NCBI RefSeq assembly: GCF_041821085.1
Contig: NZ_JBGUAZ010000002.1
Coordinates: 372,001 to 436,000 of the forward strand
Length of the DNA: 64,000 nt
Source: Natrinema sp. HArc-T2
GTDB lineage: Archaea > Halobacteriota > Halobacteria > Halobacteriales > Natrialbaceae
Direction of reading: 5' to 3'
Below, piece by piece: positions 60,857 through 63,090 of this stretch. Position numbers and translations under genes: made by a program. Position 1 is the stretch's first letter. Every line of letters starts with the position of its first letter. The notes under the pieces were generated by a model. It had not been told where the DNA came from and searched no databases. It worked only from the letters and a program-made list of their open reading frames with translations.

Positions 60857-61403
60857 TCGAGCCGGGAATCAGGAAACTCATGGTCTGATGGTCTCCATCG
60901 GAAGATCCACGATTCCAGATACCCGATTCGGGTCCAGTTGATGCAAACGAAACAGAGGAAAACCACGGTAATAAATTCTTCCTTTCCCTTCATCTCGTGC
61001 TGGAACGACGATCGGCGACGTCTGATTCGGTTTGAACGACAGGGAAAACGACCTGCGTGCTGAGCGAGATCGCTGCGTGTCGGGTCAACGATTCTGAGAG
61101 CGCAGTGAATTGTTACCTGCCGATTGGAGGATTGTATTGTCCGAGAGACGTGGTTCATTGGCTCGTCTACAGATGCGACAGACCGGGTGCTTTGGGCGTG
61201 CTCTCGAGGGAGCTCACCGACGAACAGCAAGGGAAGACTCAAGCTGTTGTCTCCGTGTGTCGTTCTAGTGTTACGCGCGAACGGACGTGAACTGGCATTG
61301 GACTGAAAGATAGCAAATGATTGCAGGTGTATTTGGTAAGTCGATGGTTCTGGAGTAGTATGTGATAATGTAGGTGGAATGTGGCTAACCTCTGATGATC
61401 AGA

Positions 61404-61655
61404 CTAGAGTGAGTATAGCTAGCATTCACTACACGCCACCCCCCACCCCTTCGTTTCAGGTGGAACGGCTCAAAGGAGGGGAGGGGGTGAGAGAGGATTC
61501 TATAAGAGGAAGTTTTATATTGACCAGTCAGAAATAGTAACCGTAGAACTAGCAGAACAGAGAATAGTACTAGGAAGCTGTTCTTTCTTACTAGTCTTCA
61601 CTAGAATCTTTTCTTGGGACTGTTGATGCTAGTAGATGAGCAGATCAGTTACTAG
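61404..61655. repeat. cluster of eight CTAG sites in the origin
   Basis: CTAG occurs at 61404, 61419, 61549, 61570, 61591, 61601, 61629 and 61652. By eye the other 63.7 kb holds only about twenty. The cluster covers the AT-rich part between the inverted ORBs. Confidence 0.8.
61436..61466 (-). promoter_or_regulatory. origin recognition box, strong
   Basis: Minus strand CCACCTGAAACGAAGGGGTG followed by a G-run. It is inverted relative to the boxes at 61704 and 61769. Confidence 0.8.
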
Positions 61656-61703
61656 AACGAATCTAAGCAGCCAATTCGTCCGTTTCTCCGGTGTAAAACC
61701 TGT

Positions 61704-61722
61704 CTCGAGTGGAAATGAGGGG
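61704..61722 (+). promoter_or_regulatory. origin recognition box, shorter
   Basis: CTCGAGTGGAAATGAGGGG, the same core as the motif at 58881 with one base changed in GAAAC. No extended G-run. Confidence 0.65.
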
Positions 61723-61768
61723 CAGCTTCCTTTCACTCGGTCGTTCATCGGTCCACGCTCTCGTCAGT

Positions 61769-61796
61769 CTCCAGTCGAAACGAAGGGGTGGGGGGC
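61769..61796 (+). promoter_or_regulatory. origin recognition box, strong
   Basis: CTCCAGTCGAAACGAAGGGG followed by TGGGGGG, the mirror partner of the box at 61436-61466 across the AT-rich segment. Confidence 0.8.
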
Positions 61797-62015
61797 TATC
61801 GCTACACCAGTCACACTCACTCTCGCTGAGATCGATCGAGAGTATCTGTAGATTTCTCTCGGAGGCTTGTGATCCGTTCGCATTGATCGTCAGCAATGCT
61901 GGAACGACAACGTCAGTTGTGGTACTAATTCACTCGTAATCGACTCTCTTCCTGTTCGGAGTGTCAACACGTCTGACGTAGGCTTAAGTGAGTTCGCTTA
62001 GTAGTACGCGCAGAT

Positions 62016-62035
62016 GCACCCCGCGGTGCTGGAGG
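62016..62035 (+). promoter_or_regulatory. hairpin and ribosome-binding site in the oapA leader
   Basis: GCACC-CCGC-GGTGC (62016-62029) is a 5-bp stem immediately followed by GGAGG (62031-62035), a Shine-Dalgarno sequence 9 bp before the ATG at 62045. So oapA seems to have a structured leader, unlike the leaderless genes elsewhere in the window. Confidence 0.5.
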
Positions 62036-62044
62036 GCCCAATAG

Positions 62045-62683
62045 ATGGGACTGTTCACAGAACTCAAAGATAGTATCTCTCGGGTGACGGATCGCCTGTT
62101 TTCGGAACAGGAGCCCAAACGAATCGGTATCTACGGTCCGCCGAACGCCGGCAAGACCACGCTCGCAAACCGAATTGCACGCGATTGGACGGGTGATGCC
62201 ATCGGTGCGGAGAGTCACATCCCCCACGAGACGCGTCGCGCACGTCGGAAAGAAAACGTCGAAATCGAACGCAACGGCAAGACGGTGACGATCGACATCG
62301 TCGACACGCCCGGTGTGACGACCAAGGTCGACTACGAGGAGTTCACGGACGAGCTCGGGGAGGAGGATGCGATTCGTCGCTCCCGTGAAGCGACCGAAGG
62401 CGTCGCCGAGGCGATGCACTGGCTGCGCGAAGACGTCGACGGCGTTATCTACGTGCTGGACAGCGCCGAAGACCCGATCACGCAGGTCAACACGATGTTG
62501 ATCGGCATCATCGAGTCCCGCGATCTCCCGGTTCTCATCTTCGCGAACAAGACTGACCTCGAGGACTCGAGTGTCAAGCGGATCGAGGACGCCTTCCCAC
62601 AGCACACGACCGTGCCGCTCTCTGCGAAAGAAGGCGACAACATGGACGAAGTGTACGACAAGATCGCGGAGTTCTTCGGGTGA
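62045..62683 (+). CDS. oapA: Era-like GTPase OapA
   Basis: 212 residues. G1 GPPNAGKTT near 31, G3 DTPG near 89, G4 NKTD near 173 and G5 SAKEG near 198 are intact. An N-terminal stretch (MGLFTELKDSISRVTDRLF) precedes the G domain. The gene is first in the oapABC set that adjoins oriC1 in haloarchaea (origin-associated proteins). The biochemical role is not established. oapB starts 5 bp after its stop. Confidence 0.92.
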   Translation: MGLFTELKDSISRVTDRLFSEQEPKRIGIYGPPNAGKTTLANRIARDWTGDAIGAESHIPHETRRARRKENVEIERNGKTVTIDIVDTPGVTTKVDYEEFTDELGEEDAIRRSREATEGVAEAMHWLREDVDGVIYVLDSAEDPITQVNTMLIGIIESRDLPVLIFANKTDLEDSSVKRIEDAFPQHTTVPLSAKEGDNMDEVYDKIAEFFG

Positions 62684-62688
62684 TACCA

Positions 62689-63090
62689 ATGCCGAAGGCA
62701 ACCAATGCAGACGATTCGGAACCGTCCGACGGCGTCCAGATCGATCTGATCAGCGGCGAACGCATGGATGGGATGGCCACGATGGAAAAGATCAGAATGA
62801 TCTTGGATGGCGTCCACGACGGGAACATCGTCATCTTAGAAGAGGGGCTGACCCCGGACGAGGAGAGCCGACTCATCGAGGTGACGATGGCCGAAATCAG
62901 CCCCGACGAGTTCAACGGGATCGAGATCGAGACCTATCCCAAGTCCGAGGCCAGCGACTCGTCGCTACTCGGCCGCATCATGGGTAACGACAAGGTGGAG
63001 ACGAAGCTCACCGTGATCGGACCGGCCAATCAGATCGAGACGCTCCACAAGGACGAAACGCTCATCAGTGCACTCGTGTCCCGTAACTAA
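62689..63090 (+). CDS. oapB: DUF2073 protein OapB
   Basis: 133 residues. GVQIDLISGERMDGMATMEKIRMILDGVHDGNIVILEEGLTPDEE near residue 15-60 is the DUF2073 core; the C-terminal part has GNDKVETKLTVIGPANQIETLHKDE. ATG at 62689 is preferred to GTG at 62680. Second gene of oapABC: its TAA overlaps the ATG of oapC by one base, so translation is coupled. Confidence 0.9.
   Translation: MPKATNADDSEPSDGVQIDLISGERMDGMATMEKIRMILDGVHDGNIVILEEGLTPDEESRLIEVTMAEISPDEFNGIEIETYPKSEASDSSLLGRIMGNDKVETKLTVIGPANQIETLHKDETLISALVSRN

Follow-up and report, generated by a model that had tools for sequence, protein, structure and literature searches.

What is a crowd of CTAG tetranucleotides doing inside the replication origin of a haloarchaeon whose DNA avoids that word? 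The question is raised by the oriC1 locus of Natrinema sp. HArc-T2, analysed here within a stretch of 64,000 nucleotides (the window). Eight CTAGs lie within 252 bp, at 61404-61655, and 20 in the other 63.7 kb (one at 61265 and 19 elsewhere), for a total of 28. The excess is 101-fold over the 0.079 copies expected per 252 bp at the outside rate (rough Poisson value with scan correction, 9e-12), and the initial annotation's estimate of eight against about twenty, a roughly hundredfold density, agrees with these exact counts. Dinucleotide shuffles of the window yield 84 CTAGs where 28 are observed: the avoidance asserted earlier is borne out, and it is relieved at the origin. Shuffling the 252 bp themselves yields 2.99 +/- 1.49 copies and reaches eight or more in 6 of 2,000 trials; base composition therefore accounts for part of the excess and not for the whole of it.

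The locus is an oriC1, with its orc1/cdc6 gene, an inverted pair of ORBs with G-strings, an AT-rich centre, a GTPase gene in the oapA position, and oapB (Table 1). The cluster does lie next to ORBs, as had been noticed, but the 252 bp are not one unit: six CTAGs are located between the ORBs, whereas the two at 61404 and 61419 are outside the left ORB and unconserved. What had escaped notice is that the inner sites form a spaced and oriented array. They are best read as a selected cis-element in the unwinding region between the inverted ORBs, a reading that follows from the enrichment of an otherwise avoided word, its fixed offsets, whole-turn spacing and TTACTAG context, its uniqueness, and the lack of enrichment in lineages without a CTAG methyltransferase.

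Table 1. Components of the oriC1 locus (window positions; fractions of 37 refer to Natrialbaceae loci)
Feature	Position	Strand	Basis
orc1/cdc6 initiator gene of oriC1, 598 aa	59024..60820	-	PF09079 Cdc6_C 5.9e-32; NF001625 ORC1-type 651 bits, above cut-off
CTAG outside left ORB	61404..61407	.	unconserved in alignment
CTAG outside left ORB	61419..61422	.	unconserved in alignment
Left ORB with G-string, GTTCCACCTGAAACGAAGGGGTGGGGGG on minus strand	61436..61471	-	consensus common to relatives; near-invariant in alignment
G-rich repeat immediately inside left ORB	61475..61489	+	sequence
Conserved block of unwinding region, TTTTAT ... AGAAAyAGTAwCCGTAG	61511..61546	+	seen in most families
Array site ORB+103 (ACTAGCA)	61549..61552	.	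CTAG within 3 bp in 29/37
Array site ORB+124, 21 bp from preceding site; family consensus TTACTAG	61570..61573	+	33/37
Array site ORB+145 (TTACTAG), another 21 bp	61591..61594	+	34/37
Array site ORB+155 (ACTAGA), 10 bp further	61601..61604	+	35/37
Array site ORB+183; family place ORB+183 to +187	61629..61632	.	34/37 within 3 bp of ORB+185
Array site ORB+206 (TTACTAGA), mainly Natrinema	61652..61655	+	13/37; alignment
Degenerate inner ORB-like element	61698..61732	+	motif match
Right ORB, inverted relative to left ORB	61763..61798	+	motif match; conserved
GTPase gene in oapA position	62045..62683	+	PF01926; relatives encoded in 462 genome stretches
oapB	62680..63090	+	PF09846 OapB 7.9e-43

Several parts of the locus merit separate comment. 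The Orc1 protein is ~180 residues longer than the NCBIfam profile and carries a long acidic insert in its AAA+ part. The conserved block at 61511-61546 resembles a promoter plus a further element; it is recognisable also in lineages without the methyltransferase (in Halorubrum it reads AACAGTACCCTCG). The ~80 bp 5' of the oapA-position gene (61965-62044) are near-invariant among Natrinema, and a possible hairpin, GCACCCCGCGGTGC, directly precedes its start codon; these could be a promoter together with a structured leader.

The simplest account of the cluster, and the alternative that the initial annotation had offered, is that selection against CTAG is merely absent from AT-rich non-coding DNA. 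Avoidance does ease with AT content outside origins, the observed/expected ratio (O/E) rising from 0.07 to ~0.8 in Natrialbaceae. The comparison that decides the matter sampled 80 loci around the oapA-position gene and 120 oriC1 loci picked by methyltransferase status, with 155 distinct loci in which orc1 adjoins the oapA-position gene serving for base-by-base comparison. When windows of matched GC are compared in Natrialbaceae, those at the origin exceed the others in CTAG 5- to 10-fold (19.3 against 3.0 per kb at GC.40-.44; 13.9 against 1.45 per kb at GC.44-.48), with O/E up to 5.6, and in 47 of 47 Natrialbaceae the origin exceeds every other 250-bp window of its locus. Other AT-rich DNA thus does not match the origin at equal GC, and the sites are kept at the oriC1 of relatives, the two checks that had been proposed. 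Counting tetramers only in the DNA flanked by the ORBs puts CTAG at the top of 136 in each of three genome groups with the methyltransferase (O/E 6.73, 5.37 and 3.88); in genomes that lack it, CTAG ranks 123rd of 136 (O/E 0.40), so that AT-rich origins without the enzyme show no excess. Over the whole intergenic region of the origin, O/E is 1.51 in Natrialbaceae, 1.04 in other methyltransferase-bearing families, 0.55 in Haloferacaceae with the methyltransferase and 0.16 in genomes without it, and all flanks lie at 0.06-0.10. Together with the conservation of the CTAG positions, the matched-GC windows and tetramer ranks refute relaxed avoidance, which we regard as almost certainly wrong.

Nor does GATC take the place of CTAG where the methyltransferase is missing: its O/E at those origins is 2.17, against 3.12 in their flanks, and since it is not enriched there this substitution was rejected. 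Two side observations concern GATC itself. It is apparently strongly depleted in two genera (g19 and g22, with 0-1 copies per genome of the reversed triplet pattern, which is GATC-based and so was set aside as an unfair control for the CTAG triplet) and in Halorussus (O/E 0.44 in the flanks), the word being over-represented in most relatives.

Alignment of Natrinema origins shows CTAG positions kept while the intervening DNA varies. When offsets are taken relative to the left ORB, across 37 Natrialbaceae and with a tolerance of +/-3 bp, CTAG recurs at 103, 123, 144, 154 and 185 in the proportions given in Table 1, and in Natrinema often also at 82 and 206; it is the sole word of 256 to recur at three separate offsets in at least 60% of genomes. 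The core spacings in Natrialbaceae are 21, 21, 10, 31 and 20 bp, that is, whole helical turns. Relative to the site at 144, and at 10.3 bp per turn, the sites fall at -6.1, -4.1, -2.1, 0, 1.0, 4.0 and 5.9 turns; the estimated chance of six independent offsets all falling within ~0.15 turn is on the order of 1 in 1000, to be read for what is a single inherited arrangement. Distances between CTAG pairs peak at 10.2-10.3 bp in Natrialbaceae, and a variant spacing, 20 + 22, shifts the second site by one base and leaves the outer distance the same. The spacers between the core CTAGs show 31% identity between genera, in a conservation profile that is anchored on a CTAG pair and hence circular for those two sites. 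The copy in the window departs a little from the regularity of the family consensus, its site at 61629 following the preceding one by 28 bp instead of 31.

Of 101 Natrialbaceae genomes, 82 contain the triplet CTAGN16-18CTAGN6CTAG, mostly as a single copy; this 3.73-Mb genome has it at 61570-61604 and nowhere else. In four genomes (G032, G163, G263 and G338) the pattern is present twice, the two copies facing opposite ways and lying ~263 bp apart; sequence matches to Natrialba loci (L036, L047) exist for at least two of the four.

Phasing belongs to the inherited core alone, a single arrangement, since lineage-specific extra CTAGs fall out of phase. Outside Natrialbaceae periodicity is weak or absent: 13 non-redundant patterns from other families gave 1 in 500 at 10.3 bp, 294 in 500 with any period, and no signal once only ORB-bounded patterns were taken. 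A CTAG cluster located outside the left ORB, with spacings of 9, 10, 30 and 12, is seen in one group of families (L269, L274, L278).

Might the sites act through the DNA alone? The CTAG steps, or their m4C form, could destabilise or kink the duplex and so time the melting of the region, with no reader. Of the DNA between the ORBs, the sites do occupy the part richest in AT, and CTAG has been tied to kinked DNA in repressor complexes (in literature cited by PMC6471742). However, TA steps and A-tracts of the same DNA show no 10.3-bp periodicity, which favours protein contacts over generic curvature; a mere effect on stability needs no exact conservation of position; and lineages without the methyltransferase have AT-rich elements that lack CTAG. 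Such physical tuning is improbable. Generic DNA curvature was likewise rejected on the aperiodic spacing of TA steps and A-tracts.

A transcriptional role is to be weighed at the same point: the CTAGs would be the promoter or regulator site of a transcript starting in the unwinding region. A TATA-like TTTTAT block conserved across families precedes the array, and CTAG is enriched near transcription starts in Haloferax (PMC11001535). Against this, no conserved ORF lies downstream, the spacers are not conserved, and the conserved region 5' of the oapA-position gene is ~300 bp away. We consider a transcription element distinctly improbable.

The array is also oriented. Three core sites share the context TT(A/G)CTAG, which suggests that the recognised word may exceed that of the methyltransferase, and TT at -3/-2 is 91-100% conserved at two of the core sites. 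In Natrialbaceae origins CTAG is preceded by A without a following T in 197 cases and followed by T without a preceding A in 50 (41 and 52 in the flanks). The main rival to a methylated array is built on this asymmetry: an initiator or accessory factor would bind oriented TT(A/G)CTAG on one face of the helix independently of methylation, and the link to the methyltransferase would reflect shared ancestry. TTACTAG is indeed longer and more oriented than the palindrome of the methyltransferase, which counts against the methylation reading and could mean a methylation-independent binder; the different siting of CTAGs in other families, even outside the ORBs, points the same way. This rival has to accommodate two contrary facts. 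Lineages without the methyltransferase lack CTAG in a still recognisable unwinding region, in which the word ranks among the scarcer ones, and other methyltransferase-bearing families retain CTAG and not TTACTAG. On balance, a methylation-independent array appears rather unlikely.

The enzyme at issue has a candidate in the same genome, as the initial annotation had proposed to check: an orphan CTAG-type methyltransferase of PF01555 with an SPPY motif (G000:C3:472902-473951), near which no restriction gene was recognised by eye within ~1.4 kb. The SPPY motif is typical of m4C enzymes. Its putative CTAG specificity rests on family resemblance and distribution. Relatives were found in 348 of 391 Halobacteria genomes (E<=1e-3; 15 of these matches weak only) and not in 43, and in this set all but one of the genomes without the methyltransferase or with a weak match only belong to a single family (f4), which we take to be Haloferacaceae; two further Halobellus also lack it. 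At least three CTAGs per 250 bp are present at 82 of 129 origins of genomes with the methyltransferase and at 1 of 53 without (13 of 40 and 1 of 52, respectively, within Haloferacaceae). On a tree of 182 loci, seven independent pairs are supported, of which ~2-4 differ, almost without exception the way the association predicts (median p 0.25-0.5); with just seven supported contrasts, the association of cluster and methyltransferase is not significant on the tree. There are exceptions. Halorussus has the methyltransferase and no cluster (8 CTAGs in 10 kb, O/E 0.21), two methyltransferase-bearing Halorubrum have 0 and 3 CTAGs, and some methyltransferase-bearing Haloferacaceae also lack a cluster. 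In genus g66, a member with a weak match, in an assembly that is 90% complete, has 0 CTAGs in the region, and its methyltransferase-bearing sister has 11. Some genera, that of G342 and G229 among them, are taken to have lost the enzyme recently.

That CTAG is an m4C-methylated motif, as put forward earlier for Haloferax, is confirmed closer to home: 97.0% and 98.7% of sites are methylated in two Natrinema species (PMC6696651, with public SMRT data for N. versiforme BOL5-4 and N. pallidum BOL6-1), and CTAG methylation occurs also in N. pallidum NMX15-1 (PMC12160562). With the modification established in the genus, the array is very probably methylated in this organism too, and a functional link of array to methylation is plausible. 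Loss of the CTAG methyltransferase causes no growth defect in Hfx. volcanii, where high CTAG density is found at just one origin (PMC5867850, Ouellette et al. 2018); the normal growth of this mutant is to be read with the caveat that the species is not strongly clustered at oriC1. Hfx. volcanii is suggested to be a poor test host, because the oriC1 CTAGs of its family are weaker and differently placed.

The array bears on how archaea may prevent a second firing of an origin within one cycle. We give about even chances to the proposition that the cluster is a selected, methylated, protein-binding CTAG array that regulates firing of oriC1, possibly in the manner of Dam and SeqA. In outline, the methylated array would become hemimethylated at all of its sites at once when oriC1 fires; a putative reader protein, bound along one face of the helix, would contact several CTAGs and sense the hemimethylated state; and it would delay or time re-initiation, like Dam/SeqA with another reader. 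The reader and the sign of its effect (block or stimulation) are the most uncertain of these steps. The notion of a reader on one face draws on SeqA, which in vitro binds well to GATC pairs set two to three 10.4-bp turns apart, as E. coli oriC sites are not (PMC5145175) and as sites in the core of the array are. The more specific proposal, that an archaeal reader of hemimethylated m4C-CTAG sequesters or licenses oriC1 as a second, independently evolved methylation-based control of an origin, is tentative, and so, given such a reader, is the corollary that the array sites would be better phased for it than those of E. coli oriC.

SeqA itself was considered for the part of reader and rejected: it (PF03925) is absent from this genome and from Natrialbaceae, and SeqA-like matches, in 5 of 194 Halobacteria, all Haloferacaceae, cover only a weak short stretch of longer proteins. 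Those five proteins (L291-L295) score above the Pfam SeqA cut-off over a C-terminal stretch, and their N-terminal part is not SeqA.

The practical consequence is that a fixed array with five to six sites and no second copy in its genome specifies exact bases to mutate and a short bait DNA, and predicts an effect of spacing by the helical turn, not of site number alone.

CTAG crowding is not confined to oriC1 in this genome. Three CTAGs with gaps of no more than 30 bp occur at just ten places in 3.73 Mb. The genome has eleven Orc1/Cdc6 genes, and five of the ten places lie no more than ~1 kb upstream of one (P ~4e-10). The densest cluster has nine CTAGs in 100 bp (C1:819053-819152; L006:9054-9153), irregularly spaced, and is located ~0.8 kb upstream of another orc1/cdc6 gene. 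The triplets away from orc1/cdc6 are at C1:706756, which flanks a TATA-like sequence, C2:52756, C2:321465, C3:52702 and C4:201487.

CTAG clusters as such have been described before. In Haloarchaea, Blow et al. 2016 (PMC4752239, Fig. 6D) located them upstream of orc1/cdc6 and noted that they co-occur with a conserved orphan m4C methyltransferase, and an archaeal survey of 2023 (PMC10609329) repeats the association and calls its function unknown. The earlier suggestion that methylation might control the origin, partly supported here, is therefore not new. The array resembles the clusters of Blow et al. in motif, in place, in its orphan m4C CTAG methyltransferase and in occurring at several origins per genome. 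It differs in what is described: theirs is a density in 500-bp windows, which gave no handle for tests, whereas here there are offsets, whole-turn spacing, an oriented heptamer, and controls by matched GC and tetramer rank. The text of PMC4752239 contains no mention of spacing, phased, periodic or helical, and a search with most subscription journals outside its range found no report of the architecture, so that its fixed, whole-turn spaced form appears new.

Other systems bear comparison in part. The G-rich inverted repeat of Haloarcula hispanica is an experimentally shown enhancer within the ORB pair of oriC1 (PMC3936714), a cis-element that modulates firing as is proposed for the array; in contrast to the array it is G-rich and directly beside the ORBs, and passages of that paper yielded no reference to CTAG. 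Its position is comparable to that of the G-rich repeat immediately inside the left ORB in the window. TTAA in Arthrobacter and CTCGAG in Nocardia are likewise motifs of orphan methyltransferases clustered at the origin, although those are bacterial clusters beside dnaA (PMC4752239). The likeness to the GATC sites of E. coli oriC, drawn at the outset, holds in part: in both systems the short palindrome of an orphan methyltransferase occurs in a cluster at the origin, in and near the unwinding region, but SeqA is absent here, the modification is m4C and not m6A, and CTAG is avoided genome-wide where GATC is common. The CTAG array is also phased by whole turns of the helix, as the GATC sites of oriC are not (PMC5145175).
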